Shown in pieces: positions 43,417-60,834 of a DNA stretch of 64,000 bases (positions are counted from its first letter, which is position 1; each line of letters opens with the position of its first letter). The notes under the pieces were generated by a model. That model was not told the DNA's origin, searched no databases, and saw nothing but the letters and a program-made list of their open reading frames with translations. The DNA comes from Acinetobacter sp. NCu2D-2 (lineage in GTDB: Bacteria; Pseudomonadota; Gammaproteobacteria; Pseudomonadales; Moraxellaceae): contig NZ_CP015594.1 in NCBI RefSeq assembly GCF_001647675.1, positions 1,736,001-1,800,000 of the forward strand, in the 5' to 3' direction. A program made the translations under genes and the position numbers.

Positions 43417-43436
43417 AAAAAAGCCTCCAATAGGAG
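43417..43436 (+). terminator. left half of a bidirectional terminator split by the IS4 element (copy 1)
   Basis: AAAAAAGC followed by the left target duplication CTCCAATAGGAG (43425-43436). Joined to the right flank (GCTTTTTATTT), the pre-insertion site would read AAGCCTCC-AATA-GGAGGCTT with A and T runs, an intrinsic terminator between htpX and the convergent gene. Confidence 0.85.
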
Positions 43437-43475
43437 TAATGCCAGTCAGTTAAGCAAAAAAAGTTAAAATACTGT

Positions 43476-43507
43476 AAAAAGAGCGTATGTAAATACGCTC
43501 TTTTTTT
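43476..43507 (+). terminator. hairpin inside the IS4 element, touching the transposase start
   Basis: AAAAAGAGCGTAT, loop GTAA, ATACGCTCTTTTTTT: a 13-bp stem whose T-run runs directly into the transposase ATG at 43508. It should stop or attenuate transcripts entering from outside. No separate ribosome binding site lies between hairpin and ATG. The same structure is in copy 2 at 59465-59496. Confidence 0.8.
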
Positions 43508-44812
43508 ATGAATTTATCTCAGAATTTAGATTTAACATTAAAACAAACCCTACCTTCACTTTCACAATTCAGTGAATTGATTGATTTAAACTGGATTGAA
43601 GATTGCTTAAACCAAACAGGTAAAGCATCAATTCGAAAAAGAAAACTGCCTGCTGAACATGTTGTTTGGCTGGTAATCGGACTTGCTCTATTTCGAAATC
43701 AACCGATTTGGTATGTGGTTCAACAATTGCAACTTGTTTTCGGTACGGCAGAATACTGTGTACCGAGTGCATCCGTACAAGCAAGACAGCGCTTAGGCTT
43801 AGAGCCCATGAGTGCTTTATTTTCGACATTAAGTCAGGCATGGTTTAAAGACTCACAACAACAATATAGCAACTTTCACGGTCTATGCGTTTGTGCTGTA
43901 GATGGTGTGGTTTGGTCTATGCCTCATACAGAAGAAAACTTTAAGCACTTTGGTTCATCCAAAGGCAAAACAGCAGCTGCCCCTTACCCACAAGTCAGAG
44001 CGACTTGCCTGGTGAATACCAATACACATGAAATGATTGATGCCCAAATTGGCAGTATGGATCAAGGTGAATTAACCTTAGCCAGTCAATTAAAAGCACC
44101 AGTTCGCAGTATTACCCTATTTGATCGTGCTTACTTCTCTGCTGATTTTTTAGTGAGTTGGCAATCTCAGGCAGAAGAGAGTCATTGGTTGATGCGAGCA
44201 AAGGACAACCTGCGTTATGAAGTGATTCATCATAATGCGGCCCATGACTTTCAGATCAAAATGCCTGTTTCAGCAAGAGCAAAAAAGATAAATCCGTCAT
44301 TGGGTGACTATTGGGAAGCACGTTTAATTGAAGTTGAATATGCAGGAAAAATAAGACGTTACATTACATCATTAACAGATTCTGAAGTTTATCCATTCAA
44401 AGACCTTGCAATGCTTTATATCCAGCGTTGGGAAATAGAAATGTGTTATCGGGAAATTAAAAGTGATTTACAGGATGCAAGAATTTTAAGAAGCAAACAA
44501 CCTGATTTGGTCTATCAAGAATTGTGGGGGGTATTTATTGCTTATAATATCTTAAGAAGACAGATGAGGTTTATCGCTGAACATGCAAAGGTGAGTCCTT
44601 TAAGGATCAGTTTCCATATTGCATCTATGAGTATTATCAATATCTTAAGGCACACACCTTTAGAATCAGCAGGAAATCTACCCAAACATTTAGCACAATT
44701 ATTTGAACAATCTAAAATATTTGTATTACCTGAAAAAAGGCAAAGGCAATGTCCGCGAGTAGTGAAAATTAAAGCACAAAAATATCCAAGAAAATGCCAG
44801 TCAATTTCTTAA
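43508..44812 (+). CDS. IS4-family transposase (copy 1)
   Basis: 434 residues. An N-terminal IS4-type domain (about 1-110), then an RNase H-like DDE core: first Asp in CVCAVDGVVWSMPHTEENF, second in SITLFDRAYFSADFLVSWQ, and Glu in the Y-(2)-R-(3)-E-(6)-K signature MCYREIKSDLQDARILRSK, typical of IS4. The gene is intact. It stops 13 bp before the right end of the element, inside the right inverted repeat. Confidence 0.95.
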   Translation: MNLSQNLDLTLKQTLPSLSQFSELIDLNWIEDCLNQTGKASIRKRKLPAEHVVWLVIGLALFRNQPIWYVVQQLQLVFGTAEYCVPSASVQARQRLGLEPMSALFSTLSQAWFKDSQQQYSNFHGLCVCAVDGVVWSMPHTEENFKHFGSSKGKTAAAPYPQVRATCLVNTNTHEMIDAQIGSMDQGELTLASQLKAPVRSITLFDRAYFSADFLVSWQSQAEESHWLMRAKDNLRYEVIHHNAAHDFQIKMPVSARAKKINPSLGDYWEARLIEVEYAGKIRRYITSLTDSEVYPFKDLAMLYIQRWEIEMCYREIKSDLQDARILRSKQPDLVYQELWGVFIAYNILRRQMRFIAEHAKVSPLRISFHIASMSIINILRHTPLESAGNLPKHLAQLFEQSKIFVLPEKRQRQCPRVVKIKAQKYPRKCQSIS

Positions 44813-44825
44813 CTGACTGGCATTA

Positions 44826-44847
44826 CTCCAATAGGAGGCTTTTTATT
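44826..44847 (+). terminator. right half of the split terminator (copy 1)
   Basis: Right target duplication CTCCAATAGGAG followed by GCTTTTTATT. The duplication alone can still form a 4-bp stem (CTCC/GGAG), so weak terminator activity may survive on this side. Confidence 0.7.
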
Positions 44848-45299
44848 TATGACTTAAATGTCGTTTGTTCGGTCTCTATAAGTATGCTTACAAATTTGTG
44901 TAAGATCACGATGAAGTGCATAGCTTGAAGTGATCTCATCGAATTCATCGTAATTACTAAAGAAACCTTTAGTAAATTCTTCATTACGATAGAACTCATT
45001 TTTTAAATTATTATTTTTAGTAAAATCCTTCTGACATTTTAAATAATAATGCTCATATTCAACTGTTCCCTTTTTAATTACAGATCTTGCTAATTGTATA
45101 TTTTTAAGATATTTCGTCATGTACATTACGCCAAGATTACCATTTGGCTCAACACTATCAATAACATAAGCACCTATTATGTCATTATTTTTTCTGACTA
45201 CCCGATATTTATCTGCAGACCATACATGATCATGATAGTTATAGGATTTTCCATTAATATATTCAATTGTATTTAATTGTATTATTTTTTCGTTATTAC

Positions 45300-46338
45300 G
45301 GCTTTGTTGCACAAACCTATCTGTAAAGGCTTTTTCAGCGATATAATTTTCAAATGAATAAGCCTACACAGAAAATCTACCGCACAACCAATTGGCCCGC
45401 ATATAACCGAGCACTCATGAGTCGCGGAAATATTGCCATTTGGTTTGATCCTGCTACGCAATGGTATGCGCCATCAAAAGGCAAACAAGGGCGAAATCAA
45501 ACCTACTCCGACGCAGCCATCCAATGCTGCTTAATGATTAAATCCTTATTCCGTCTATCTTTACGTATGGTCACTGGCTTTGTGCAAAGTCTGATTAAAC
45601 TTTGCGGATTAAATTGGACCGCACCAGATTACAGTACGCTTTGTAGAAGACAAAAGCATATTGATATTGCAATCAGCTACCAAAAAAGTAGCGATGGGCT
45701 GCATCTACTCGTAGACTCTACAGGCATGAAGTTTCTAGGTGAGGGCGAATGGAAACGCAAGAAACATGGAGCTGAATATCGTCGCCAATGGCGTAAACTA
45801 CATATTGGTATAGATGCCAAAACCCTACAAATACGCGCTATTCAGCTCACAACCAATAATGTCAGTGATTCACAGGTGCTTGGTGATTTACTTAATCAGA
45901 TTCCACAAGATGAGCAGATTGACTCTGTTTATACCGATGGAGCTTATGACACCAAGCAATGCCGTCAGGTTATTGCAGATCGGCAAGCACATGCGGTGAT
46001 TCCACCTAGAAAAAATGCGAAACCATGGAAAGATACAAAAAGTAGCTCGCTAGAGCGAAATGAATTACTTCGAACAGTTAAACGTTTAGGCAGGACATTA
46101 TGGAAAAAATGGTCAGGCTATCATCGCCGCAGTTTGGTGGAAACCAAGATGCATTGCATCAAATTATTAGGCGATAAATTAATGGCAAGAAGCTTTCCTA
46201 GTCAGGTGAATGAAATTCATGCACGTGTAGCAGTCCTCAACAGATTTACGGAATTAGGTCGACCACTTACCCAAGTTACGCCTTAAATTTGGCTCAATTA
46301 GGGGCGCTTTGCATTTCAAATCTTTGTGCAACAAAGCC
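45300..46338 (+). mobile_element. IS5-family (IS903 group) insertion sequence, 1039 bp
   Basis: Ends in inverted repeats beginning GGCTTTGTTGCACAAA (45300-45315 and complement 46323-46338). Flanked by a perfect 9-bp target duplication CGTTATTAC (45291-45299 and 46339-46347); a 9-bp duplication is characteristic of the IS903 group. One intact transposase gene. It interrupts a small secreted-protein gene. Confidence 0.96.
45354..46286 (+). CDS. IS5-family transposase
   Basis: 310 residues, intact. DDE residues: Asp in LHLLVDSTGMKF, Asp in SVYTDGAYDTKQC, and Glu in YHRRSLVETKMHCIKLLGDKL, the IS5/IS903 signature. N-terminal region YRTTNWPAYNRALMSRGNIAIWFD is typical of the IS903 group. Confidence 0.96.
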   Translation: MNKPTQKIYRTTNWPAYNRALMSRGNIAIWFDPATQWYAPSKGKQGRNQTYSDAAIQCCLMIKSLFRLSLRMVTGFVQSLIKLCGLNWTAPDYSTLCRRQKHIDIAISYQKSSDGLHLLVDSTGMKFLGEGEWKRKKHGAEYRRQWRKLHIGIDAKTLQIRAIQLTTNNVSDSQVLGDLLNQIPQDEQIDSVYTDGAYDTKQCRQVIADRQAHAVIPPRKNAKPWKDTKSSSLERNELLRTVKRLGRTLWKKWSGYHRRSLVETKMHCIKLLGDKLMARSFPSQVNEIHARVAVLNRFTELGRPLTQVTP

Positions 46339-46520
46339 CGTTATTACCAATAATACTATTTTTCTGATTTGCAGCTTTAGCGCCTGTTCCCGCAACAAGA
46401 AATAAAAACATACTTAAAAAAATAGTTTTTTTCATTTTAATAAATTAACCCTATAAGATAAAAAAATAAATTATCAATTATTTTATATATTTACAATTAA
46501 TACCTAAGTCTTATTTAAAG

Positions 46521-47090
46521 TTAAATACGTTGATAAATTTCTATAAATCCCCAACATATCGCAAGTACAAAAAGTACTAAGAAAATTGTCCCTAAAATAT
46601 CTGGTATATGTAGCCAAATCCATGCGACGACTGGATTACGCCAAAAAGCGGATTGTTGCTGCTTACGTTCTAACTGTTCATGCAAAAATGGATGGACAAC
46701 ATGATCATCCGTCCGAATCTGATATTCCTCTCGAATATGCTGATGAACGACATCCAATGCTTTACGACTTGGGCGCATAAATACATCAAAAACCGTTCCC
46801 ACTACAGGCACAAAACCAACGACGGCATCCATAGCAGCCAGTTTTAAAACAGGTTTGAGTTTTTCTGTTGGCACACCAATCTGGCGTGCTTTATAAATTG
46901 CAAAACACGTTAGGACAAAACCTGCGACATCACCGGCAACTGGCACTGTGCTCAGTGCTGCATCTGCGCCTACCCCTTGCTTGGTAAAAGGAATTCGTAC
47001 CACCGAATCCATCATATTGGCAAATTTGGCAAGATCTCTTTCCAAACGTACCACTTCGTCTTGGCTAAGTTTTTGTTTTTGCTCAAGCAT
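46521..47090 (-). CDS. DUF4112-domain membrane protein
   Basis: 189 residues. A DUF4112 core: LAKFANMMDSVVRIPFTKQGVGADAALSTVPVAGDVAGFVLTCFAIYKARQIGVP and MDAVVGFVPVVGTVFDVFMRPSRKALDVV. A C-terminal membrane segment follows (ILGTIFLVLFVLAICWGFIEI). Function unknown. It lies just beyond the promoter side of the IS-disrupted secreted gene. Confidence 0.85.
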   Translation of the reverse strand: MLEQKQKLSQDEVVRLERDLAKFANMMDSVVRIPFTKQGVGADAALSTVPVAGDVAGFVLTCFAIYKARQIGVPTEKLKPVLKLAAMDAVVGFVPVVGTVFDVFMRPSRKALDVVHQHIREEYQIRTDDHVVHPFLHEQLERKQQQSAFWRNPVVAWIWLHIPDILGTIFLVLFVLAICWGFIEIYQRI

Positions 47091-47183
47091 ATGTGAACGA
47101 TTTCATTTAAAAATAATATGCAGCATAACTGATTCTTAGATTAAAAATCTGTCGTCATTTGATTAACTTAGCATTCTCAAAAA

Positions 47184-48524
47184 TTAAAATATTAACTGTG
47201 ATGCCACAAACAAATAGACCACTACTCCTGTCGCATCACAAATTGAAGTGACTAAAGGTGATGAAGCACTGGCAGGATCCAGCTTAAGCTGATTTAAGAT
47301 GAACGGTAGACTCATCCCAATCAGACACCCCAACAGTACAATACTAGTCATACTGATCGCGAGCACTAAAGCCACCATTTCATCGCCACGGATATAACCT
47401 AGAATAGATACGGCAACCGCCATGGTGATCCCTAAACAGAGCGCAACCAACGTTTCACGACCAATTAAGCGAAACCAGTCTTTTAGCTCAACATCCCCAG
47501 TTGCTAAAGCACGTACCATTAAAGTTGCCGATTGTGAACCCGCATTACCACCACTGCCCACCAAGAGTGGTAAAAAGAATACCAAGACAATATTCTGCTC
47601 GATAATATCTTCATACTTGGCAATGCCAAAACTTGATAAAAGACTGCCAAAGACCAAGATCACTAGCCAAAAAACGCGGTTACGATAGAGAGAGAAAATC
47701 GGTACGGTTTTAATACTTTGTTTTTCAAAAGGTGCAATTGCCCCAGCTTTTAAAAAGTCCTCAGTCCCTTCTTGTTCGAAAATATCCATCGCATCATCAT
47801 AGGTAACTATCCCTAAAAGGCGTTTATGCTGGTCGGTAATCGGTAATGCAATAAAATCATAATGTGCCAGCAATCGTGCGACATCTTCCTGATCATCCTC
47901 TACACATGCGTGAATCACATCAGTAGTCATCACATCTCGAATACGTGCATTTGGTTCTGCTTGTATGATTTGGCGCAGGGAAATCACACCCATTAACTGC
48001 TCTGCTGCATCTACGATATAAATCAAATACAAAGTATCTTGGTGATGTGCCAGTTGTCTTAACGCTTCAATCGCTTCATTCATATTCAGCTCAGGTGACA
48101 AAGTCACATAATCTGAACTCATCAAGCTCCCTGCTGTACTTTCAGGATAAATAGACAGTAGTTCTAATTTTTTCCTTGAAGCCAGTGACAATTGTGCTAA
48201 CAGCGCCTGCTGTAAAGTCATGCTAAATGTATTAAATAAATCAATCAGATCATCTGAATGCATGGCGTCCAAAATCTGAGCAATTTCGTACTCGTGTAAT
48301 CGCGTAATTAAGTCGTGTTGCTGATCTAAAGGCATAAATTCCAAAACATCAGCAGGATGAATAAGCAAACGAAATAAGGTGAGTTGCTCATCCGGATGAA
48401 ATTGCTGAATCAGACTGGCCTGATCGGCCATATTCATTTGCCCAAGTAAAACTGCAATGTCTTCGAGTTCATTGCATTTGAGATGTTTTTGAATATATTG
48501 AATCTGTTGATTTAAATTAAGCAT
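47184..48524 (-). CDS. mgtE: magnesium transporter MgtE
   Basis: Mg2+-gated magnesium channel of the inner membrane. 446 residues. Cytosolic N domain of helical repeats (1-120), two CBS domains (about 130-255, with GSLMSSDYVTLSPELNMNEAIEAL and IRDVMTTDVIHACVEDDQ), a plug helix, then five membrane segments from about residue 285. These include the pore region LPLLVGSGGNAGSQSATLMVRALATGD and LDPASASSPLVTSICDATGVVVYL. A gap of 67 bp from the RND pump gene upstream. Confidence 0.95.
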   Translation of the reverse strand: MLNLNQQIQYIQKHLKCNELEDIAVLLGQMNMADQASLIQQFHPDEQLTLFRLLIHPADVLEFMPLDQQHDLITRLHEYEIAQILDAMHSDDLIDLFNTFSMTLQQALLAQLSLASRKKLELLSIYPESTAGSLMSSDYVTLSPELNMNEAIEALRQLAHHQDTLYLIYIVDAAEQLMGVISLRQIIQAEPNARIRDVMTTDVIHACVEDDQEDVARLLAHYDFIALPITDQHKRLLGIVTYDDAMDIFEQEGTEDFLKAGAIAPFEKQSIKTVPIFSLYRNRVFWLVILVFGSLLSSFGIAKYEDIIEQNIVLVFFLPLLVGSGGNAGSQSATLMVRALATGDVELKDWFRLIGRETLVALCLGITMAVAVSILGYIRGDEMVALVLAISMTSIVLLGCLIGMSLPFILNQLKLDPASASSPLVTSICDATGVVVYLFVASQLIF

Positions 48525-48591
48525 GCTTCATCTCTAGCAAGCAAGTCAGCACCAATTGTGGCACTGACTCATATTTCATTGTTCTTAGTGA

Positions 48592-51500
48592 TCAGCTTTC
48601 GGATTTTACTGATTTATTAAAGATTCCTCGTATCATTACATACATAAATGGGATAAAGATCAGTACGAGAACTGTACCAAAGATCACGCCACCCAAAACG
48701 CTGACACCAATTTCCTGTCGACTAACCGCCCCGGCACCAAATGCGAAGACTAAGGGCAACACACCTGCACCAAACGCTAATGATGTCATTAAAATAGGAC
48801 GTAAACGTAGAGCAGCGCCTTCTAATGCAGCAGCTAAAACCGCTTTACCTTTTTGCTCTGCCATTGCCGCAAATTCAACAATCAAAATCGCATTTTTACA
48901 TGACAAACCAATGGTGGTTAATAATGCAATTTGGAAATAGATATCGTTTGGGAACCCTGCAATATAACTAAATAAAATATTGCCTCCGATACCCAACGGA
49001 ATCGCGGTCATCACAGCGGTTGGAATGCTCCAACTTTCATACAAAGCAGCTAAACACAGGAAAATAAAACCAATTGAGACCAAATATAATAGTAAAGTCT
49101 GACTTGAGTTCTTTTGTTCTTCATAAGCCAATCCGCTCCACGCAACATCTACACCTGAGGTTTGATCGACTAAATTAGTCAAATCTTGCATGGCTTGACC
49201 AGAACTCACTGACTCACTTTTGTCTGCATCTAATTGAATCGCACTGTAACCATTAAAGCGATTGACCATTTCAGGCCCGCCTGACCATTTCACTTGAGAG
49301 AAAGTACTAAATGGCACCATTTCATTATTGCGATTACGTACCGACCAATATTGTAAGTCTTCAGGTTTTGCGCGGTATTCAGCATCACCTTGCATCATGA
49401 CGCGTTTAATTTTTCCACGATCTATAAAGTCATTGATATATTTACCGCCAAGTGCCGCAGAGAGCGTTGAATTAATATCAGTTAATGCCAAGTTTGAGGC
49501 TAAAGCCGCTTGTTGATTAATCTCCACTTCAATATTAGCCTTAGACGGCGCTGTACGTTTTTCTAAAGACTCAAAAGAATTGTATTGATCAGCATTGGCT
49601 TTAATTTCATCAAAGCGCTGCGATAAAACATCACGGCCCATGCCATCAATATCACGTAGCCATAAGCTGATGCCATTGGTATCCCCAAGTCCATTGACCA
49701 CAGGTGGCATAGACAACATGATTTTGGCATTTTTATCTTTGCTAAAATAACGTGTTGCACGTTCCTTAATGGCATCGGCGGTATTTTCCTTGCCTGAGCG
49801 CTCATCCCAATGTTTGAGTTTGACAAAACCTTGTGCCACATGTTGCCCACTACCGGTACGGTTTTGTCCATAACGCAACATGACTAAATCGACATTATCC
49901 GCTTCATGCTTAAGGAAATATTCACGAATCGACTCACCTACTTTTATGGTTTGAGTCATCGGTGCATTATCTTGCAGCGTCACTTGCACGCTGAGCGTTC
50001 CCTGATCTTCATTTGGCAAATAACTGGTCGGCAATGCTCGATAATATAAACCAAAGACAATGAGTAAGGCTGCTGCAATAATTAAAGTCACAGACTTATT
50101 TTGAATGGTTGCTTGTGACAGCTTTAAATATCGCTGTTTGATATTTTCAATAAAATGATTAAATCGGTTTGCCCAACCGTAACGCTTTTGCTGCGGTTTT
50201 AAAATAATGGCACAAAGTGCGGGGGTTAGAATTAACGCCACCAATAATGAAATTGCCATAGCAGTGACCAATGTCAGCGAAAACTGGCGATAAATCACAC
50301 CTGTTGATCCACCAAAGAAAGCCATTGGAATAAATACTGCGGTCAGAACTAGCGTAATCCCGACCAATGCTCCACTGATTTCCTGCATCGATTCAATAGA
50401 GGCTTGCTTGGCTGACATCTGCTGTTCATGCATCAGACGTTCAACGTTTTCCACCACAACAATTGCATCATCCACCAATAGGCCAATCGCCAAGACTAGG
50501 GCAAACAGGGTCAATGTGTTGATACTTAATCCCAAGACATACAGCACCGCCATCGTACCCAAAATAACGACAGGGACTGTAATGGTTGGAATTAAGGTCG
50601 CTCGCCAATTTTGCAAGAAGATAAACATTACGATAATCACAAGAATGATCGCTTCAAATAATGTTTTCACCACTTCTTGAATCGAGGCCTGTACAAATGG
50701 CGTGTTATCTCGTGGATAAACCAGTTTATAGCCTTCAGGTAAACGCTTACTTAAATGCGTGACCATTTCATCAATATTGGCTGATGTGGAAATGGCATTC
50801 GCACCAGACGCCAATGAAATCGCCATACCTGAAGATGGATAACCATTAATGGTGTTGTAAGCTTGATAATTTTCAGCACCGAGTTCTACGCGCGCAACAT
50901 CTTTTAAGTAGATGTAACTGCCATCCGGTGCAGATTTGACAATAATATTTTGGAATTGCTCAACGGTACGTAATTTACTGCCTGAAGTGACTTTGGCATT
51001 TAAATATTGCTCTTGTGCAACCGGTAACTCACCCACGGCACCTGCAGCAACTTGTGTATTTTGTGACTCAACCGCCTGCTGAATATCACTTGGCATCAAT
51101 TTATATTGTTTGAGCTTATTCGGATCAAGCCAAATACGCATGGCAAATTTTGAACCAAAGACATCAACTTCACCCACGCCATCCACACGGGCAATTTCAC
51201 TTTCTAAATGGGTAAGTAAGTAATCCGCCAATTCAATATTGCTGCTTTTCCCCGATTCATCATACAGTCCAATGACCATATGCGTATCACCCAACGACTT
51301 ATTAACATTCACACCTTGGCGTTGAACATCTTGAGGTAAACGGCTAATCACGCCGTTAATGGCATTTTGTACTTGGACTTGTGCGGTATCAGGATCTGTA
51401 CCATTTTCAAAACTAATATTAATACGGCTACGACCTGAGGAATCACTGCTGGAACTAAAATACAGTAAGCGATCAATGCCTTTAATTTGCTGTTCTAAAA

Positions 51501-51693: not shown

Positions 51694-51948
51694 AAGCTCT
51701 GTTCACTTTGTATTTAATAATGATGAGTTCAGGTTATAACGATATTTCAGTTGCTAAAAATAATCGATGACTGACGCTGAGAATGCAAGTCATTATCACA
51801 TAAAGCAAAGCTAAAGTGCTCATTATGAAGGAAATATGAAGGACTTACTGTCGTTCAGCTTGACAGGATTTCTGCACTATTTATGCATATTTTTCATATG
51901 AAACGTGTTGTCATTTTTTGATAGCGTCTAGTACTTTTAATAAGCCAT

Positions 51949-51976
51949 AAAAAAACCCTGCTTACGCAGGGTTTTT
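51949..51976 (-). terminator. intrinsic terminator after aceA
   Basis: AAAAAACCCTGC / GCAGGGTTTTTT with a TTAC loop; symmetric A and T runs. Confidence 0.9.
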
Positions 51977-51993
51977 TCGAATCAGTTCGGGAC

Positions 51994-53598
51994 TTAGTGA
52001 GCCGCGAATTGGTTCATTGTGTTTTTCGCATCGTCACCCGCTTTAAGCGCGTTGTCACCAGCGAAGATTTCTTTGTGGTCATCACCGATGTCAGAACCCG
52101 CCATTGCTTGGTGTTTCACGCAAGCGATACCGCCACGGATTTCTTTACGTTGTACGCCAGCAACATAAGCCAACATACCTTCTTCACCGAAGTAACCTTG
52201 AGCAAGTTCGTGAGTAGAAAGTGCTGCAGTGTGGTAAGTCGGAAGTGTGATCAAGTGGTGGAATACACCTGCTTCACGAGAAGCATCTGCTTGGAATGTA
52301 CGGATCTTCGCATCAGCATCAGCTGCAAGCTCAGTGTTGTCGTACTCAGCGCTCATTAATTTAGCGCGGTCGTATGCAGATACGTCTTTACCTTCAGCAA
52401 CCCAACGGTCGTATGCTTGTTGACGGAAGTTTAATGTCCAGTTGAATGATGGAGAGTTGTTGTAAACAAGTTTCGCATTTGGCACAACTTCACGTACACG
52501 GTTGACCATGTGAGCGATTTCTTCAACGTTTGGCGTTGCAGTTTCGATCCAAAGAAGGTCAGCACCGTTTTGAAGGCTAGTAATACAGTCAAGTACAACA
52601 CGGTCAATTTGAGTACCTTCACGGAATTGGTACAAGCCAGAAGCAAGACGTTTTGGACGGTGAAGTTTACCATCACGTTTGATTAGGATTTCGTCTTCAG
52701 TTGCTTCAGAGATGTCAATTTCTTGAGTGTCTAAGTAGCTGATGTATTGAGAAGCAATGTCGCCTGGCTCTTTAACCACTGGGATTTTTTGAGTCAAGTC
52801 AGCGCCTTCAGAGTCAGTACGTGCAACGATGATACCGTCGTCAAGACCCATTTCTAAGAATGCATAGCGAAGTGCGTGGATTTTCGCGATGAAGTCTTCA
52901 TGCGGAACAGTTACTTTACCTGCTTGGTGACCACATTGTTTCGCATCAGATACTTGGTTTTCGATTTGAAGTGCACAAGCACCCGCTTCGATCATTTTCT
53001 TAGCTAGTAAGTAAGTTGCTTCTTCGTTACCGAAACCAGCGTCGATGTCCGCAATAATTGGCACAACGTGAGTTTGGAAGTTGTCGATTTGTGAAGTGAT
53101 TTCAGTAACTTTCGCAGAATCACCCGCTTCTTGTGCTTTTTTAAGTGCGCGGAAAAGATCGTTTAATTCTTTTGCGTCAGCTTGACGTAAGAATGTGTAG
53201 ATTTCTTCAATCAATGCAGGAACAGATGTTTTTTCGTGCATAGATTGGTCAGGAAGTGGACCGAACTCAGAACGAAGTGCTGCAACCATCCAGCCAGAAA
53301 GGTAGATGTAGCGACGTTCAGTTGTACCGAAGTACTTTTTGTTCGCAATCATTTTTTGTTGTGCGATGAAACCGTGCCAGCAACCCAAAGATTGAGTGTA
53401 TTTGCTAGAGTCAGCATCATAAGCAGCCATATCACGACGCATAATAGCAGCTGTGTATTTCGCGATGTCTAAACCAGTTTTGAAACGGTTTTGCAGTTGC
53501 ATACGCGCAGCATCTTCAGGAGAGATGTCTGCCCATGTGTTGCCGAATTTTGCTTTTAATTCGCGGATTGCATCAATCGCTGTTTGGTATGTAGTCAT
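51994..53598 (-). CDS. aceA: isocitrate lyase (long form)
   Basis: Splits isocitrate to glyoxylate and succinate, the first step of the glyoxylate shunt needed for growth on acetate or fatty acids. 534 residues from the ATG at 53598 (MTTYQTAI), chosen because AGGAAA lies upstream; an in-frame earlier ATG would add 12 odd residues. The catalytic cysteine is in SDAKQCGHQAGKVTVP (K-Q-C-G-H). Other motifs are GWMVAALRSEFGPLPDQSMHEKTSVP, DIDAGFGNEEATYLLAKKMIEAGACALQIENQ and LVYNNSPSFNW. The length and K-Q-CGH motif mark the larger isocitrate lyase subfamily. Malate synthase is not in the window. Confidence 0.97.
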   Translation of the reverse strand: MTTYQTAIDAIRELKAKFGNTWADISPEDAARMQLQNRFKTGLDIAKYTAAIMRRDMAAYDADSSKYTQSLGCWHGFIAQQKMIANKKYFGTTERRYIYLSGWMVAALRSEFGPLPDQSMHEKTSVPALIEEIYTFLRQADAKELNDLFRALKKAQEAGDSAKVTEITSQIDNFQTHVVPIIADIDAGFGNEEATYLLAKKMIEAGACALQIENQVSDAKQCGHQAGKVTVPHEDFIAKIHALRYAFLEMGLDDGIIVARTDSEGADLTQKIPVVKEPGDIASQYISYLDTQEIDISEATEDEILIKRDGKLHRPKRLASGLYQFREGTQIDRVVLDCITSLQNGADLLWIETATPNVEEIAHMVNRVREVVPNAKLVYNNSPSFNWTLNFRQQAYDRWVAEGKDVSAYDRAKLMSAEYDNTELAADADAKIRTFQADASREAGVFHHLITLPTYHTAALSTHELAQGYFGEEGMLAYVAGVQRKEIRGGIACVKHQAMAGSDIGDDHKEIFAGDNALKAGDDAKNTMNQFAAH

Positions 53599-54271
53599 GA
53601 TATTTTCCTGTAATAATAATAGGATTTTATTCAACGAAATCTTAAAATCTTACCCTCGGAGTTTTGCTTAGATTTTAGACGCTTCGTTGCGATGAATAGA
53701 GATTAGATGCAATAAAAAAATTAATCCAATATTATGAGAGAATCTTCATTATTTATTTAAAAAATATGTAGATTAAAGTCTTATGATATAGAAATTAATA
53801 TTAACCATATTATTGATTTTATTAAATAAAATAAATTTTAAAAATTAAAAATATGCATAATTTTTAAACAAATTTTTTAAAAATTCGATCTTATACTTAA
53901 GTCTTTTAGACTTTGGTCTTTGACTAAAATGCCCTATTTTTTGAACAAAAATGCCAATCCAAAAATAATTAAAAATTTCAAAAAATAGATTATTCACGTG
54001 TTTAGTCTTGTATTTTTCTCGCTTAGAACTTACCCCTTATATTTTACGTTTTAATTCTACATTTGGGGTTGAAATTAACCAAATTAAAAAACTAGCAAAT
54101 GCTTTAAAAATCTAGGATGTTCTCGATCTTTAATCCGAGTAATTGTAGGCATAACCCGGTTGCATTTATACTAAAAATTAGCGAGTTTTTTTTCATCATT
54201 TTCTTACCCATCCCCACATGGATATGGCATAATCACTATAATTTCATGGTTTTATTTTCGGTATTTTCTTT
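53599..54271. other. long AT-rich intergenic region between aceA and a LysR gene
   Basis: 673 bp between divergent genes, with no convincing small gene. It must hold the aceA promoter (catabolite or acetate control would act here) and a promoter for the LysR gene; a TATAAT lies at 54237-54242, upstream of the latter. Nothing else is distinct within the A/T-rich middle (53690-54100). Confidence 0.55.
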
Positions 54272-55261
54272 ATGAATTTGGAGCGGGTCGATCTCAATCT
54301 ATTAATTTATCTAGATGTACTCCTTCGCGAAAAAAACGTCACACGTGCTGCTGAACAACTCGGTGTCACCCAACCCGCGATGAGTAACATTTTACGTCGT
54401 CTACGTAATTTATTTAATGATCCCCTCCTGATTCGTTCTTCTGAAGGCATGACACCGACTGAGCGTGCTTTAGAATTGCAGCCACGTATTCGTGATGCCC
54501 TTTCTGATCTTTCCATGATTTTGGAACCACGTACTGAGTTTCGACCATATACCTCAAATCGTGTTTTCCGCATTATGACTTCAGACTATGCAGAAGCGAC
54601 TTTAGTGCCACGTTTAGTCAAAGCGTTACGCTCTGAAGCACCCAATGTGGTTCTCGACTTTTTAACGCCAAGTGATGTGTCATACCGAGACATGGAACAA
54701 GGTAAAGTCGACCTTGCGATTAACCGCTTTAATGAAATTCCACAAAGTTTTCACCAAGTCTTGGTTTGGCGTGACAGTTTCTCTTGTCTACTGAATCAAA
54801 AACACCCTGCATCAACCAACTTAAACCTAAAAAGCTACCTCGATGCACAGCATATTTGGGTGTCTAAAACAGGTATGGGTGTAGGCTTTGGTGTGAATCC
54901 TGAAAAACAAGCTGGACTCGGCTGGATTGATCAGGCTCTAGAGCGTATTGGTCAAAAACGTAAGATTTCAGTATTTACTCGTCATTATCAAATGCCAGGT
55001 TTATTGGCATCTAATGTTGACTTGATTGCGACATTGCCTACACGTATTGCACGTTTACAGGCTAAAAATCAAAATCTACTGATTAAAGATCCACCGTTTT
55101 ATATTCCTGAGTTCGAACTTAAAATGGCTTGGTGTCCTTTATTGCATCATCATCCAGCACATCGCTGGTTACGTCAGTTGATTTTGTATGTTGCACGTCA
55201 AATGATTGAAGAAGAGAACCGTGAATTTTTAAACAATAATTCACAGTTTTCACATTATTAA
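54272..55261 (+). CDS. LysR-family transcriptional regulator
   Basis: 329 residues. N-terminal winged helix-turn-helix (about 5-65: VDLNLLIYLDVLLREKNVTRAAEQLGVTQPAMSNILRRLRNLFNDPLLIRSSEGMTPT), then a substrate-binding effector domain (about 95-305). The start of the HTH resembles the NahR/NodD-like subgroup. Divergent from aceA at a long intergenic distance, so control of the glyoxylate shunt is possible but not shown. Own terminator downstream. Confidence 0.93.
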   Translation: MNLERVDLNLLIYLDVLLREKNVTRAAEQLGVTQPAMSNILRRLRNLFNDPLLIRSSEGMTPTERALELQPRIRDALSDLSMILEPRTEFRPYTSNRVFRIMTSDYAEATLVPRLVKALRSEAPNVVLDFLTPSDVSYRDMEQGKVDLAINRFNEIPQSFHQVLVWRDSFSCLLNQKHPASTNLNLKSYLDAQHIWVSKTGMGVGFGVNPEKQAGLGWIDQALERIGQKRKISVFTRHYQMPGLLASNVDLIATLPTRIARLQAKNQNLLIKDPPFYIPEFELKMAWCPLLHHHPAHRWLRQLILYVARQMIEEENREFLNNNSQFSHY

Positions 55262-55304
55262 TTTGTAATTTTTGCTAAATTCTTATTTTCTAAGCTTATA
55301 ATCT

Positions 55305-55346
55305 AAGGACTTAAGATGCATTTTTTGCACTCAAGTCCTTTTTTTA
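55305..55346 (+). terminator. intrinsic terminator after the LysR gene
   Basis: AAGGACTT ... AAGTCCTT outer stem with an inner TGCA pair and seven T, before the CNNM gene. Confidence 0.8.
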
Positions 55347-55389
55347 TGTTAAAAATATCAATAGATCATCTTTATCCACAGGTGGATTC

Positions 55390-56712
55390 GTGAGCCTCTT
55401 TCAAAATATCGTGATTATTTTAATACTCATCGCGGGGGCTGGTTTTTTATCCTTAACAGAAATCGCGCTTGCCGGTGCTCGTAAAGTCAAACTGAAAATT
55501 TTGGCAGAATCTGGCGATGCACGCGCGCAGAAAGTATTAGATCTACAAGCCAATTCTGCTGACTTCTTTGCAGCATCTCAAATTGGCTTAAATGCTGTCG
55601 CTATTCTAGGCGGTATCTTGGGTGAAGGTGCTTTTCGCCCGTATTTCATTAACTTTGTAAATCAGTTCTATCATGGGCCTTGGGCAGAAACCATTGGTTT
55701 TACCCTATCCTTTACCATGGTCACCTCCCTGTTTATTTTATTTGCCGATCTTATGCCTAAACGCTTGGCCATGATCGCGCCAGAAAAAATTGCAGTTTCT
55801 GTGATTGATCCTATTCAGGTTTTTATCACTGTTTGTAAACCATTGGCCTGGTTTATTAATGCCATTGCGAACTTGCTGTTCCGTCTATTTAAAGTGAATA
55901 CCACACGTGATGACAATATCACCTTTGATGATATTTCAGCGGTGATGGATGCAGGTGCACAAGCAGGCGTACTACAAAAGCAAGAACACCACTTTATTGA
56001 AAACGTGTTCGAGCTTGAAGAACGTAACGTACCTTCAAGTATGACCACGCGTGAAAACGTCGTATATTTCACACTAAAAGAATCAGAAGAAAGTATTCGT
56101 CAGAAATTGGCTGAATTCCCCTACTCTAAATTTTTGGTGTGTAGCGAAAATATTGATGACGTGATTGGTTATGTCGACTCTAAAGATATTTTGGTGCGTA
56201 TTCTGAATAATCAGTCTTTATTGCAACTCAATGAAAATACCATTCGTAATGTACTGACCATCCCAGATACATTAACTTTGTCTGAATTGCTCGATCGCTT
56301 CCGCTCAACTAAAGAAAAGTTTGCTGTCGTAATTAACGAGTATGCGTTGGTGGTTGGGGTTATTACCCTCTCTGACATTATGATTACCGTGATGGGCGAT
56401 TGGGTGACACCGATTGAAGCCGATCAGCAAATCATTAAACGTGACTCTAATTCATGGCTGATTGATGGGAGTACACCGATTGAAGATCTTAAACATGCGC
56501 TTGAAATCGATGCAATGCCCGATGAAGAAAACTATGAAACCTTGGCAGGTTTTATGATGTTCAAGCTGCGTAAAATTCCTCGCCCTGCCGATACGGTTTT
56601 ACACGCGGGATATAAATTTGAAGTCGTCGATGTCGATCATTTTAAAATTGACCAATTATTGGTAACGCGCATCGATTTACCGCCTGAAAACAAAATCTTG
56701 GAAGAATCCTAA
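55390..56712 (+). CDS. CNNM/CBS-domain transporter-like protein (CorC/HlyC family)
   Basis: 440 residues starting at a GTG with AGGTGG upstream. CNNM (DUF21) membrane domain (about 1-185, with LSLTEIALAGARKVKLKIL and ASQIGLNAVAILGGILGEG), a CBS pair (about 210-335), then a CorC_HlyC C-terminal domain (from about 350: DSNSWLIDGSTPIEDLKHAL, YETLAGFMMFKLRKIPRPADT). Family members are linked to Mg2+ or Co2+ efflux. A small membrane protein gene follows at 27 bp. Confidence 0.92.
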   Translation: MSLFQNIVIILILIAGAGFLSLTEIALAGARKVKLKILAESGDARAQKVLDLQANSADFFAASQIGLNAVAILGGILGEGAFRPYFINFVNQFYHGPWAETIGFTLSFTMVTSLFILFADLMPKRLAMIAPEKIAVSVIDPIQVFITVCKPLAWFINAIANLLFRLFKVNTTRDDNITFDDISAVMDAGAQAGVLQKQEHHFIENVFELEERNVPSSMTTRENVVYFTLKESEESIRQKLAEFPYSKFLVCSENIDDVIGYVDSKDILVRILNNQSLLQLNENTIRNVLTIPDTLTLSELLDRFRSTKEKFAVVINEYALVVGVITLSDIMITVMGDWVTPIEADQQIIKRDSNSWLIDGSTPIEDLKHALEIDAMPDEENYETLAGFMMFKLRKIPRPADTVLHAGYKFEVVDVDHFKIDQLLVTRIDLPPENKILEES

Positions 56713-56739
56713 AAATAGATGATTTAAGGCAGAATAAAG

Positions 56740-57018
56740 ATGTCAGTCTCAGCGCTTCTTGCATGTACGAGTTTTTATTCTGCACTTTATCTTGTTTATT
56801 ATTTCTTTATTAAAGTCCAAAACCCACTGTTTTTATTTTTAGCAGTGGGTTTGTTAATTTTTGCCTGCATCATTACCCCTTATGGTTATGAGCGACAACG
56901 TTCAAGTTACGACCGCACCATGAGTTTTGGTCAATATCTTGCTGTTCCATTGATCTTGTGGGGAAGACTGTTCATCCTTCCCATTAGCCTGATTCTAAGT
57001 TGGCTATATTCCAATTAA
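56740..57018 (+). CDS. small membrane protein, unknown
   Basis: 92 residues with three hydrophobic segments (about 5-22, 30-48, 65-88) and little else (YGYERQRSSYDRTMSFGQYL between the last two). Directly downstream of the CNNM gene and before a terminator, so probably co-transcribed. No family recognised. Confidence 0.65.
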   Translation: MSVSALLACTSFYSALYLVYYFFIKVQNPLFLFLAVGLLIFACIITPYGYERQRSSYDRTMSFGQYLAVPLILWGRLFILPISLILSWLYSN

Positions 57019-57043
57019 AAAAAGCACCCAAAGGTGCTTTTTT
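57017..57043. terminator. bidirectional intrinsic terminator
   Basis: AAAAAAAGCACC / GGTGCTTTTTT with a CAAA loop between convergent genes. Confidence 0.88.
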
Positions 57044-57055
57044 CATGCTCGAAAT

Positions 57056-57565
57056 TTAGTGTACTTTAGTCAGTAAAGTATCTAATACAGCCTGATAGTG
57101 AATGCGAATATCATCTTCTAAGATTTTATAGGCATTATCAAACTGAACCATTGGCCAGCCTTCTTTCCAGAATGGGAAGATATTGTGTAAGTCGTGGGTC
57201 ACGATAGCATCTTCACGTACAATTGCTTGTGCAATTTGCGCAAGAACCTGCGCTGTTTCAGCACCATCAATGGCTAAGTAATCAATACCGCGTGCTTTTA
57301 GAATACGGATACGGTCTTTTTTATAACGAATTTTTTTAATTTGCGCTTCATTTAAACCTAAAGCCAAAGACACCGCTTCAACAAATTTACTTTCAAATGA
57401 CTGATTCAACTCAACAAGCGCTTGTTTATAGCCTTCCTGACGACCTGCTTTACCCGCACTACGAATCGCAAGCTCAGCTTCAGTGTTCAGCACATCGTTT
57501 TTCATACTTTGAAGAATGTCGATAATTTCGATGTCGCTTAATGTCGTAGGAGATTGATCAGTCAT
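57056..57565 (-). CDS. hypothetical protein
   Basis: 169 residues, soluble, mainly helical (SDIEIIDILQSMKNDVLNTEAELAIRSAGKAGRQEGYKQALVELNQSFESKFVEAVSLALGLNEAQIKKIR), then a more mixed C-terminal part (ARGIDYLAIDGAETAQVLAQIAQAI, HDLHNIFPFWKEGWPMVQFDNAYKILEDDIRIHY). No signal peptide or recognised family. Stand-alone. Confidence 0.7.
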   Translation of the reverse strand: MTDQSPTTLSDIEIIDILQSMKNDVLNTEAELAIRSAGKAGRQEGYKQALVELNQSFESKFVEAVSLALGLNEAQIKKIRYKKDRIRILKARGIDYLAIDGAETAQVLAQIAQAIVREDAIVTHDLHNIFPFWKEGWPMVQFDNAYKILEDDIRIHYQAVLDTLLTKVH

Positions 57566-57728
57566 GAACTGTCCTTAAAAAATATTCAATGTGCTATTTT
57601 CGCATAATTTACTCTGAAATACCCATAATCTTCATCAACAACTGTGCGTCTATTCTGATAGAGAGCAGCCTTTTATTGCTAAATCCTCTATAGTAAAGAT
57701 GATATTTTTTGCTGCTGTCACATCTTAC

Positions 57729-58454
57729 ATGGAAAAAATCAACGTCCCATTACTGCTACAAGCATTAGAAAAGCAATATCCAGCAGCATTTAAACAAAAT
57801 TATTTGTTTTACGGACAAATTAAAACCAAAGGTATTTGGGACGATCGTCGTGAGTTTATTCCGTGGGTTTTAGGCTTGATGATTTTTGTTCCGAGCGCAC
57901 TTGCGTTACGTGACTTGCTCTTGCATACGCTGTTATCGAATACATTTCTCGCGCAAGCCTATGCAATTTTGGCAGTCATGTTATTTTTAATGTTGGTCAA
58001 TCCCCTGATTATTAAACAGATTCGACATTCATCTCATTCACTTTATCAATTACTGCAGCATAGCCCTGTCAAACTCACCATCATTATTGTGCTGGAAGCA
58101 ATCAATCTGATATTTCTACAAAATACTTTCGTCATGTGGGTCGGCTTATTACTAGCCATTAATTTTGGTTTTGTGCGCTTCTATAAAGAAAATTTATTTC
58201 GTGAACAGGCCCAAGATCAGGATTACTATCAATTACAACAGTTAAGATGCGCCTGTTTTTGGACATATAAACAAACTCTTAAACTCCGTATGCAACTTAT
58301 TTTTATGTCCAAGGAAAGTTTGAAATACCGTAATGCGAAACAACAGTTAAACCGCTTTGCGGATCTATACCGTCAACTGTTCGCAACTGAACATCAATAT
58401 TGTAAAAAGATTAAGCATATCAATATCGACACCTATTTGGATGAAATGCTCTAA
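57729..58454 (+). CDS. four-TM membrane protein, paralogue of the gene after tRNA-Leu
   Basis: About 241 residues. An N-terminal cytosolic piece LLLQALEKQYPAAF, four membrane segments (roughly residues 40-60, 72-92, 115-135, 137-155 of this start), and a long basic cytosolic tail (QLQQLRCACFWTYKQTLKLRMQ ... HQYCKKIKHINIDTYLDEML). The gene beyond tRNA-Leu has the same plan and endings. Start uncertain: an in-frame ATG at 57699 would add 10 residues; 57729 is chosen because the paralogue aligns from there. Function unknown. Confidence 0.7.
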   Translation: MEKINVPLLLQALEKQYPAAFKQNYLFYGQIKTKGIWDDRREFIPWVLGLMIFVPSALALRDLLLHTLLSNTFLAQAYAILAVMLFLMLVNPLIIKQIRHSSHSLYQLLQHSPVKLTIIIVLEAINLIFLQNTFVMWVGLLLAINFGFVRFYKENLFREQAQDQDYYQLQQLRCACFWTYKQTLKLRMQLIFMSKESLKYRNAKQQLNRFADLYRQLFATEHQYCKKIKHINIDTYLDEML

Positions 58455-58529
58455 GACAAAGATAGTTTGCATTTTTTAAACATAAACGACTGAATTGATT
58501 GAAAAGAAAGCAATTAGTACGAAATAAAC

Positions 58530-58558
58530 TTGCCAAGATAAATTTCCTACTCTATTAT
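58530..58558 (+). promoter_or_regulatory. tRNA-Leu promoter
   Basis: TTGCCA (58530-58535), 17-base spacer, TATTAT (58553-58558), then TGCGCACA before the tRNA. Same -35 hexamer and spacing as the two tRNA-Ser promoters. Confidence 0.7.
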
Positions 58559-58567
58559 TGCGCACAT

Positions 58568-58653
58568 GCCCGAGTGGTGAAATCGGTAGACACAGGGGAT
58601 TTAAAATCCCCCGCCCACAAAGCGTGCCAGTTCGAGTCTGGCCTCGGGCACCA
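58568..58653 (+). tRNA. tRNA-Leu(UAA)
   Basis: 86 nt including encoded CCA. Acceptor GCCCGAG / CTCGGGC, anticodon stem GGGGA / TCCCC with anticodon TAA, long variable arm (GCCCACAAAGCGT), T loop GTTCGAGTC. Confidence 0.97.
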
Positions 58654-58683
58654 TTTTCAATTTAGAAGATGGTGCAATAAAAG

Positions 58684-58708
58684 AACCCAGCGATAAGCTG
58701 GTTTTTTT
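58684..58708 (+). terminator. intrinsic terminator after tRNA-Leu
   Basis: CCAGC-GATAA-GCTGG followed by seven T. Confidence 0.8.
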
Positions 58709-58741
58709 ATGCCTATAATTTATAAAATGCGAACCTCACTC

Positions 58742-59407
58742 ATGTCCGCTGAACCCGAATTTAATCTGCAACAATTACAACGCCAGTACCCTGAAGCTTT
58801 TTTCTGTCGTCTTGGTTATAGCCGTTATAAATTGCCTGTCTTTTACAAAAGTTTTGCTTTTATCACACCACTCATCAGTTTTATTTTAATTACGTATTTA
58901 TGTTCGGTACTCATCGCCCTTCCTTTGCATCAATTTTATTTTGCATCTATTTCTGATGCACTCGATGTCAGCACAATTATTTTAATGGGTATGGGTTACC
59001 CCTATCTTATTTACATACATTATCAAGCCAAATATAGCTCTTATCATTTTGCTCAGCGTATACAGCATGCACTCTATGCGTTGACGATTTTATGTCTTGT
59101 TTTACTCATCAACTTTTTATTTATTCATATCGAATTGATCAGTCTAATGGGTTTAATTACCTTTGCCAGTTTAAGCCTAGGCACGGTATTCATTGAAGTT
59201 AATTTTAAGCCTCATTGCCGTGCGCTTGACCACATCAAATTACAAAAAATCAGGCAATTGGCGTATTGGACATTTCGCCAAAGTCAACGTCATAAAAATC
59301 GTCAGCAGGAATATCTTGACGTACATCATTTATGTCTAAAACAAGAACATAAACTGTTATTAGAAATTAAATATATCAACTTAAAAGATAGTTTTGCTGA
59401 GCATTAA
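58742..59407 (+). CDS. four-TM membrane protein, paralogue of the gene before tRNA-Leu
   Basis: About 221 residues. N-terminal LQQLQRQYPEAF, four membrane segments, and a basic cytosolic tail (LQKIRQLAYWTFRQSQRHKNRQQ ... EHKLLLEIKYINLKDSFAEH) that parallels the tail of the gene at 57729. Start chosen at 58742 (MSAEPEF) because the alternative ATG at 58709 directly abuts the tRNA terminator T-run and leaves no ribosome binding site. Its terminator has been split by the second IS4 copy. Function unknown. Confidence 0.7.
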   Translation: MSAEPEFNLQQLQRQYPEAFFCRLGYSRYKLPVFYKSFAFITPLISFILITYLCSVLIALPLHQFYFASISDALDVSTIILMGMGYPYLIYIHYQAKYSSYHFAQRIQHALYALTILCLVLLINFLFIHIELISLMGLITFASLSLGTVFIEVNFKPHCRALDHIKLQKIRQLAYWTFRQSQRHKNRQQEYLDVHHLCLKQEHKLLLEIKYINLKDSFAEH

Positions 59408-59425
59408 AAAAGCCCTGACAGACAG
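59406..59425 (+). terminator. left half of a bidirectional terminator split by the IS4 element (copy 2)
   Basis: AAAAAAGCC then the left target duplication CTGACAGACAG (59415-59425). The pre-insertion site would be AAAGCCCTG-ACAGA-CAGGGCTTT with A and T runs, between two convergent genes. Confidence 0.85.
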
Positions 59426-60814
59426 TAATGCCAGTCAGTTAAGCAAAAAAAGTTAAAATACTGTAAAAAGAGCGTATGTAAATACGCTCTTTTTTTATGA
59501 ATTTATCTCAGAATTTAGATTTAACATTAAAACAAACCCTACCTTCACTTTCACAATTCAGTGAATTGATTGATTTAAACTGGATTGAAGATTGCTTAAA
59601 CCAAACAGGTAAAGCATCAATTCGAAAAAGAAAACTGCCTGCTGAACATGTTGTTTGGCTGGTAATCGGACTTGCTCTATTTCGAAATCAACCGATTTGG
59701 TATGTGGTTCAACAATTGCAACTTGTTTTCGGTACGGCAGAATACTGTGTACCGAGTGCATCCGTACAAGCAAGACAGCGCTTAGGCTTAGAGCCCATGA
59801 GTGCTTTATTTTCGACATTAAGTCAGGCATGGTTTAAAGACTCACAACAACAATATAGCAACTTTCACGGTCTATGCGTTTGTGCTGTAGATGGTGTGGT
59901 TTGGTCTATGCCTCATACAGAAGAAAACTTTAAGCACTTTGGTTCATCCAAAGGCAAAACAGCAGCTACCCCTTACCCACAAGTCAGAGCGACTTGCCTG
60001 GTGAATACCAATACACATGAAATGATTGATGCCCAAATTGGCAGTATGGATCAAGGTGAATTAACCTTAGCCAGTCAATTAAAAGCACCAGTTCGCAGTA
60101 TTACCCTATTTGATCGTGCTTACTTCTCTGCTGATTTTTTAGTGAGTTGGCAATCTCAGGCAGAAGAGAGTCATTGGTTGATGCGAGCAAAGGACAACCT
60201 GCGTTATGAAGTGATTCATCATAATGCGGCCCATGACTTTCAGATCAAAATGCCTGTTTCAGCAAGAGCAAAAAAGATAAATCCGTCATTGGGTGACTAT
60301 TGGGAAGCACGTTTAATTGAAGTTGAATATGCAGGAAAAATAAGACGTTACATTACATCATTAACAGATTCTGAAGTTTATCCATTCAAAGACCTTGCAA
60401 TGCTTTATATCCAGCGTTGGGAAATAGAAATGTGTTATCGGGAAATTAAAAGTGATTTACAGGATGCAAGAATTTTAAGAAGCAAACAACCTGATTTGGT
60501 CTATCAAGAATTGTGGGGGGTATTTATTGCTTATAATATCTTAAGAAGACAGATGAGGTTTATCGCTGAACATGCAAAGGTGAGTCCTTTAAGGATCAGT
60601 TTCCATATTGCATCTATGAGTATTATCAATATCTTAAGGCACACACCTTTAGAATCAGCAGGAAATCTACCCAAACATTTAGCACAATTATTTGAACAAT
60701 CTAAAATATTTGTATTACCTGAAAAAAGGCAAAGGCAATGTCCGCGAGTAGTGAAAATTAAAGCACAAAAATATCCAAGAAAATGCCAGTCAATTTCTTA
60801 ACTGACTGGCATTA
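59426..60814 (+). mobile_element. IS4-family insertion sequence, copy 2 (1389 bp)
   Basis: Same element as at 43437-44825, with the same perfect 18-bp inverted repeats. Flanked by an 11-bp target duplication CTGACAGACAG (59415-59425 and 60815-60825). Because each copy has its own matching duplication, the two inserted independently. One base differs between the transposase genes; comparison by eye found no other change. Confidence 0.95.
59497..60801 (+). CDS. IS4-family transposase (copy 2)
   Basis: 434 residues, identical to copy 1 except Thr for Ala in KTAA(T/A)PYPQ near residue 158. DDE residues and the Y-(2)-R-(3)-E-(6)-K block are intact. The start codon directly follows the hairpin T-run. 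Confidence 0.95.
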   Translation: MNLSQNLDLTLKQTLPSLSQFSELIDLNWIEDCLNQTGKASIRKRKLPAEHVVWLVIGLALFRNQPIWYVVQQLQLVFGTAEYCVPSASVQARQRLGLEPMSALFSTLSQAWFKDSQQQYSNFHGLCVCAVDGVVWSMPHTEENFKHFGSSKGKTAATPYPQVRATCLVNTNTHEMIDAQIGSMDQGELTLASQLKAPVRSITLFDRAYFSADFLVSWQSQAEESHWLMRAKDNLRYEVIHHNAAHDFQIKMPVSARAKKINPSLGDYWEARLIEVEYAGKIRRYITSLTDSEVYPFKDLAMLYIQRWEIEMCYREIKSDLQDARILRSKQPDLVYQELWGVFIAYNILRRQMRFIAEHAKVSPLRISFHIASMSIINILRHTPLESAGNLPKHLAQLFEQSKIFVLPEKRQRQCPRVVKIKAQKYPRKCQSIS

Positions 60815-60834
60815 CTGACAGACAGGGCTTTTTG
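60815..60834 (+). terminator. right half of the split terminator (copy 2)
   Basis: CTGACAGACAG followed by GGCTTTTTG. It lies 3' of the hypothetical gene on the minus strand, which now lacks its full hairpin. Confidence 0.7.

Follow-up and report, generated by a model that had tools for sequence, protein, structure and literature searches.

Introduction

Insertion sequences (ISs) of the IS4 family carry transposases with the motifs D(60-110)D(100-150)E and Y(2)R(3)E(6)K, and members of its IS4 subgroup have ends of the form -AATR---, target duplications of 10-13 bp, a typical size of 1400-1650 bp and a published target specificity located in both arms, left and right (De Palmenaer et al. 2008, PMC2266710). 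Here we analyzed a 64,000-nucleotide stretch of the Acinetobacter sp. NCu2D-2 chromosome (contig NZ_CP015594.1; hereafter the window) that contains two copies of such an element, each within a predicted intrinsic terminator, and compared them with copies in the rest of the host genome, in the genus and beyond it. Insertion into palindromes has been described for ISs that target repetitive extragenic palindromic (REP) sequences: ISPsy8 inserts at the symmetry axis of the hairpin, all copies of the IS4-family element ISRm22 lie in REPs, and in one S. flexneri genome 3 of 11 REPs contained IS4 (PMC1525189). REPs are one repeated sequence, whereas the targets described here are unrelated terminators that share a layout. 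Group IIC introns insert next to intrinsic terminators; they are retroelements that lie beside the stem, unlike the DDE-transposase element studied here, which enters the middle of the hairpin and divides it. Mayaux reportedly described in 1984 an IS4 insertion in the attenuator of pheST, with the consensus AAA-N20-TTT, in a paper that our literature search did not return.

The window element shares its transposase domains, motifs, ends and 10-13 bp duplications with E. coli IS4 and the IS4 subgroup (PMC2266710). The word terminator does not occur in the main text of that paper, and the hairpin core, the phasing and the hairpin carried by the element are added here. ISs of S. aureus subsp. anaerobius have the same 5' feature, a bidirectional terminator that was tested with a reporter; the available part of that report describes no terminator targeting (PMC8171923). 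No paper naming terminators as the target of the IS4 subgroup was found in a search judged mostly on titles and the openings of abstracts, which does not prove that none exists. Palindrome-targeting ISs are a known kind; a subgroup-wide choice of terminators, phased runs with a palindromic core and a conserved element-borne hairpin were not found in print in the literature searched.

Two window copies split predicted terminators at their centres

The comparisons below make it very likely that transposases of the IS4 subgroup select intrinsic-terminator DNA, as a two-fold symmetric layout, and that the element carries a terminator hairpin of its own. In the window, copy 1 occupies positions 43437-44825 (+ strand, 1389 bp, ends TAATGCCAGTCAGTTAAG) and copy 2, which differs from it by a single base, positions 59426-60814 (+ strand, 1389 bp). 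Each separates the two halves of its target. The left half at copy 1 (43417-43436) holds the A-run, the stem base and the left duplication (43425-43436), and the right half (44826-44844) the right duplication (44826-44837), the stem base and the T-run. At copy 2 the left half (59406-59425) includes the duplication at 59415-59425, and the right half (60815-60833) the second duplication (60815-60825), the stem base and the T-run. The duplicated sequences are CTCCAATAGGAG for copy 1 and CTGACAGACAG for copy 2. Excision of the element together with one duplication yields AAAAAAGCCTCC-AATA-GGAGGCTTTTT (folding at -16.6 kcal/mol) and AAAAAAGCCCTG-ACAGA-CAGGGCTTTTT (-15.9 kcal/mol), respectively, each a hairpin preceded by an A-run and followed by a T-run. 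Both sites lie between convergent open reading frames (ORFs), 42492-43397 (+) and 44854-45312 (-) for copy 1 and 58709-59407 (+) and 60836-61150 (-) for copy 2. An earlier note on this DNA had placed both copies at the exact centre of a terminator hairpin between convergent genes, and its coordinates and duplications proved right to the base.

That note had also proposed a comparison with the empty sites of related strains. Predicted terminators stand uninterrupted at the orthologous places in related species. We inspected the best 14 loci for each copy from many matches (148 and 159 of 175 genomes, host included) with a script that reports the longest stem within 150 nt. An A/T-flanked hairpin was present at 13 of the 14 loci for copy 1 (L300 is imperfect) and at 10 of the 14 for copy 2; the remaining 4 matched solely in the right-hand gene, and another stem is found there.

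Every copy in the host genome lies in a predicted terminator

The 18-base end of the element was found 14 times in forward and 14 times in reverse orientation in the host genome, corresponding to 14 copies, all with exact duplications of 10-12 bp. All 14 empty sites contain a hairpin, an A-run of at least 4 and a T-run of at least 4, with the hairpin axis no more than 1 nt from the centre of the duplication. The targets differ in sequence and are not one repeated palindrome of the kind used by REP-targeting ISs; each matches a predicted intrinsic terminator, a G/C-rich hairpin with a T-run after it, placed directly downstream of a gene. Judged by ORFs of at least 70 amino acids, 10 sites are convergent and 4 tandem, with none divergent and none inside an ORF, and every site is immediately downstream of at least one ORF.

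We then scored sites by a fixed rule that requires a stem of at least 6 pairs no more than 2 nt from the axis and at least 4 A or T within a 6-nt window on the arm, counted as a run. A stem with a run was scored at 14 of 14 host copies and runs on both sides at 13 of 14. By comparison, among 40,000 random positions from 400 kb of the host genome, 1,530 (3.8%) had at least one run and 192 (0.48%) had both (binomial p ~1e-29 for the two-sided score). The claim that terminator-centre hits exceed chance, first made from the two window copies, therefore extends to the whole genome. As a control, an unrelated DDE element with 14 usable copies in the same genome scored 1 of 14 one-sided and 0 of 14 two-sided.

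The preference extends across Acinetobacter and to other genera

The end sequence, allowing at most one mismatch, is present in 67 of 175 Acinetobacter genomes. Copies from some of these 67 gave 99 end pairs after removal of duplicates, host included, comprising 72 full-length copies (14 from the host and 58 from others), 23 short elements resembling miniature inverted-repeat transposable elements (MITEs) and 4 interrupted copies. A duplication was found at 54 of the 58 full-length copies from other genomes; 52 of the 54 score as terminators, 48 of them two-sided. The four full-length copies lacking a duplication by our rule (L032, L038, L056 and L110) were left out of scoring. L110 has a 13-bp repeat with one mismatch; at L032 and L038 the two flanks resemble, by eye, halves of different terminators, and look as recombination between copies would leave them. 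Three of the 4 interrupted copies score as terminators.

In a sample of 274 genomes of the class, only the host genome matched at E <= 1e-40, and relatives were therefore drawn from species-genome contigs, scanned with an alignment of relatives. This gave 80 loci, of which 50 were examined; 30 were left out by hand where the element ran off the end of a contig, only part of it matched or the genome had been sampled before. Another 8 loci were added from plasmids and E. coli chromosomes. Most relatives have ends near YAATGCC-NN-TCAGTTAAG; ends were not found for L177 and L208. Outside Acinetobacter, 47 of the 54 loci examined have a duplication; 43 of the 47 score as terminators and 31 are two-sided. 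Twelve of the 54 loci come from one species, Acidovorax temperans (more than one contig), and therefore share history. For E. coli IS4, 24 loci were reduced to 15 distinct sites with a duplication (7 were repeats, 1 had a damaged end and 1 no direct duplication). A hairpin is present at 12 of these 15 sites, 9 of them two-sided, and 6 of the 15 are also counted among the 47. The proposal that the transposase selects terminator hairpins is supported in host, genus, other genera and E. coli alike. A majority of copies lying off inverted repeats, the outcome that the earlier note had named as telling against selection, was looked for across host, genus, other genera and E. coli and not found.

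The element carries a predicted terminator hairpin of its own

We chose 37 elements and read 36, since L206 could not be extracted. All 36 have a predicted terminator hairpin next to the transposase start, with a stem of 13-16 pairs in 33; in L146, L172 and L173 folding reveals the hairpin, with one mismatch or an enlarged loop. Unbroken stems of 13 pairs or more occur in 32 of 34 distinct elements; the corresponding counts were 1 of 1,700 for single-base shuffles and 0 of 34 for windows lying within the gene. Counting from the loop, each of the four Watson-Crick pairs is seen at stem positions 1-7, 9 and 10, and positions 12-13 are nearly always A-T; structure is kept and sequence is free. 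In the window, the predicted bidirectional hairpins span 43476-43505 in copy 1 (13 pairs, loop of 4) and, from sequence and folding, 59465-59494 in copy 2, with a fold of -16.5 kcal/mol on the plus and -15.6 kcal/mol on the minus strand. In 28 of 32 distinct element hairpins there is an AAA/TTT block, and run spacing is 20-27 nt as opposed to mostly 14-19 nt in targets, under slightly different definitions of spacing. Four of the 32, from E. coli IS4 and the kin of three others (L148, L150, L197 and L211), have a shorter A side and may therefore work in one direction only. The DNA that interrupts the four over-length copies lies within their transposase gene rather than in the hairpin.

A second hairpin, at the right end (44793-44824 in copy 1), pairs the right terminal repeat with an inverted copy inside the element; sequence and folding place it at 60782-60813 in copy 2. 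The left-end terminator and right-end hairpin would most likely separate neighbouring transcripts and block read-through into the transposase gene. Shielding of the transposase gene from outside transcription is a role known from other ISs, and keeping such transcription out is compatible with the hairpin found here. On the simplest reading, the element breaks a terminator and supplies one of its own. It is plausible that insertion is near-neutral for the host, as had been proposed for this element, given that all 14 host sites are downstream of an ORF and 10 of them convergent; the predicted loss of the resident terminator counts against near-neutrality, the best fold being near -16 kcal/mol at the empty sites and just -4.7 to -6.1 kcal/mol at the junctions of the window copies.

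Runs, core and spacing bear on what the transposase reads

We propose that the transposase reads an A-run 4-7 nt outside one cut and the matching T-run outside the other, with a G/C-rich palindromic core between them and the runs 14-19 nt apart at most sites. The cuts fall mostly 2-3 nt inside each run, so that the duplicated 9-14 bp comprise the loop and usually 3-4 stem pairs per side, and folding shows that insertion splits the predicted terminator and leaves weak folds at both junctions. Outside the cut, positions -7 to -4 carry A in 96-99% of 142 half-sites from Acinetobacter and in 77-96% of 94 from elsewhere. The core is rich in C and G, C standing at +3 in 65% of the former and 84% of the latter, and its mirror partners agree more often than column composition would give, with z of 4.5-8.7 at -3 to +3 in Acinetobacter. 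Spacing was taken from the runs alone, since stems extend into the A/T runs. The nearest runs of three are 14-23 nt apart in 110 of 118 sites (mode 16; no more than 19 in 105 of the 110). Across every sampled site, duplications measure 9-14 bp.

It is possible, although we advance it tentatively, that an extruded hairpin or cruciform is recognized instead, or the same fold formed in single strands while DNA is transcribed or replicated; the runs would then aid extrusion. The variable duplication length fits this, as it rises with run spacing in Acinetobacter (Spearman 0.64, n = 71, partly because the spacing contains the duplication). Moreover, duplication parity tracks spacing at 83 of 110 sites versus 58 expected (maximum 75 in 10,000 permutations), and the axis lies at the duplication centre. 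However, a run phase tied to the cuts is equally expected if duplex DNA is read, hairpin-less sites exist, and hairpins without runs, which random positions often have (4,328 of 40,000 carry a stem of at least 6 pairs, 192 of them two-sided), are rarely used in Acinetobacter.

It is conceivable, if doubtful, that the transposase seeks out the terminator fold, that the hairpin determines how long the duplication is, and that the element swaps in an over-long bidirectional terminator whose length hides it from its own transposase, as a self-avoidance code. Spacings of at least 20 are under-used as targets (1 of 68 sites versus 11 of 76 natural hairpins; Fisher 0.005). None of the sites shown resembles the element's own hairpin, and since few would be expected this absence proves little. 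Natural two-run hairpins in the host genome also have spacings mostly of 14-18, and spacing alone is therefore weak evidence of choice.

We consider it unlikely that duplex sequence alone is read, namely an A-run and a T-run suitably spaced and in phase with the cuts, with terminators the commonest harmless places of this kind and the hairpin itself unread. No feature of the sites is more constant than the A at -7 to -4, the arms are kept at the hairpin-less L149, L313, L314 and L202, and the arm specificity reported by De Palmenaer et al. (PMC2266710) would be accounted for. By contrast, a strict test for unbulged hairpins was passed by 58 of 68 Acinetobacter sites (those with A4..T4 arms among 72 full-length and interrupted copies) and by 56 of 130 intergenic A4-N14..20-T4 places (Fisher 5e-9), the core columns pair beyond composition, and in other genera 16 of 47 sites lack runs of four on both sides, most of them being hairpins. 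These comparisons suggest that the hairpin still adds to target choice beyond the A/T arms. Both runs and palindrome count, and the runs look more constant. The earlier statement that what the targets share is structure therefore holds insofar as the hairpin adds to the arms, but not for structure alone, the A at -7 to -4 being near-invariant.

Near-random insertion in which only copies in terminators survive, other places being harmful, is very improbable: although no host copy lies inside an ORF, survival cannot produce base-precise centring, a different IS under the same selection is never found at two-sided terminators, and such centres make up less than one in two hundred random positions. 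On the random-position and control-IS counts, selection acting on random insertions was rejected as a sufficient cause, and this precision and these controls suggest that the site is chosen by the transposase; selection may still decide which terminators keep a copy.

Several observations weigh against selection of terminators by the transposase. Weak sites occur among full-length Acinetobacter copies (L113 and L126, both runs retained), among interrupted copies (L036) and outside the genus (L198, L202, L210 and L149). The three hairpin-less or weak E. coli sites (L149, L313 and L314) are the K-12 site and insertions in two genes, yicI and an oxidoreductase gene, where short A/T arms are retained, as runs are at most sites without a hairpin. 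The MITE-like elements have a duplication in 16 of 23 cases, and just 11 of the 16 score as terminators; those of G076 lie beside another repeat, CCTCCC/GGGAGG, and a duplication is absent from those of G017. In other genera, a dependence of duplication length on spacing is not clear (Spearman 0.23, n = 38, p 0.17). Finally, copies in the same genome are not fully independent events, and neither are the 15 E. coli sites, because the bamD and adhE terminators were met repeatedly.

If transposases of the IS4 subgroup do select terminator DNA, a classic IS group would follow a simple landing rule, and terminators would provide a predictable map of landing sites. Such a rule offers a reason for the variable duplication length and the known arm specificity of the subgroup, and the element's own terminator hairpin may explain its spread without much harm. 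With such a rule one can also test whether what a DDE transposase recognizes is DNA sequence, shape or an extruded hairpin, and whether mobile elements bring replacement terminators that render their insertions harmless.

Transposase, family membership and neighbouring elements

The transposase genes lie at 43508-44812 (+) in copy 1 and 59497-60801 (+) in copy 2, each encoding 434 amino acids with the domains Nterm_IS4 and DDE_Tnp_1. The protein scores above the cut-off of NCBIfam transpos_IS4_1 and is 36% identical to that of E. coli IS4 over 447 columns. Its catalytic residues, read from the sequence, are D132, D206 and E311 (spacings 73 and 104), and Y304, R307, E311 and K318 fit the YREK spacing of the IS4 family. 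The ends (TAATGCC) and the element's own 10-12 bp duplications agree with the IS4 subgroup, and its 1389 bp are slightly under the typical size; the ends begin with TAATG rather than with the CAT of the IS231 subgroup. By domains, motifs, ends and duplications, both window copies are assigned to the IS4 subgroup of the IS4 family. A different DDE element at 45300-46338 (ends GGCTTTGTTGCACAAA, DDE_Tnp_1_5 domain, 9-bp duplication) probably truncates ORF 44854-45312 beside copy 1. Viral contigs, scanned once with one relative, yielded no element.

The interrupted Acinetobacter copies (L036, L106, L123 and L131) are 2.4-3.9 kb long, and the ORFs inserted within their transposase genes look like transposases. 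MITE-like elements that share the ends of the IS and measure about 176-350 bp, many of them in terminators, were found in G043 (L057-L060 and L064) and G103 (L070, L078, L086, L090, L098 and L136-L138), and are probably moved by the element's transposase. Others with the same ends, of 133-147 bp and 289-375 bp, in G076 (L069, L077, L085, L089 and L097) and G017 (L061-L063), are not in clear terminators.

Several E. coli strains hold IS4 in the terminator after bamD (L151, L317, L321 and L323) or in the one beside adhE (L324, L326 and L328), with duplications of different length or in opposite orientation, which may reflect hot spots or shared descent. L176, which was not scored by the script, resembles by eye L328, where the flanking target copies are mutually inverted: the reverse complement of the left 15 nt differs from the right 15 nt at no more than one position, as though the loop of the hairpin had been turned over.

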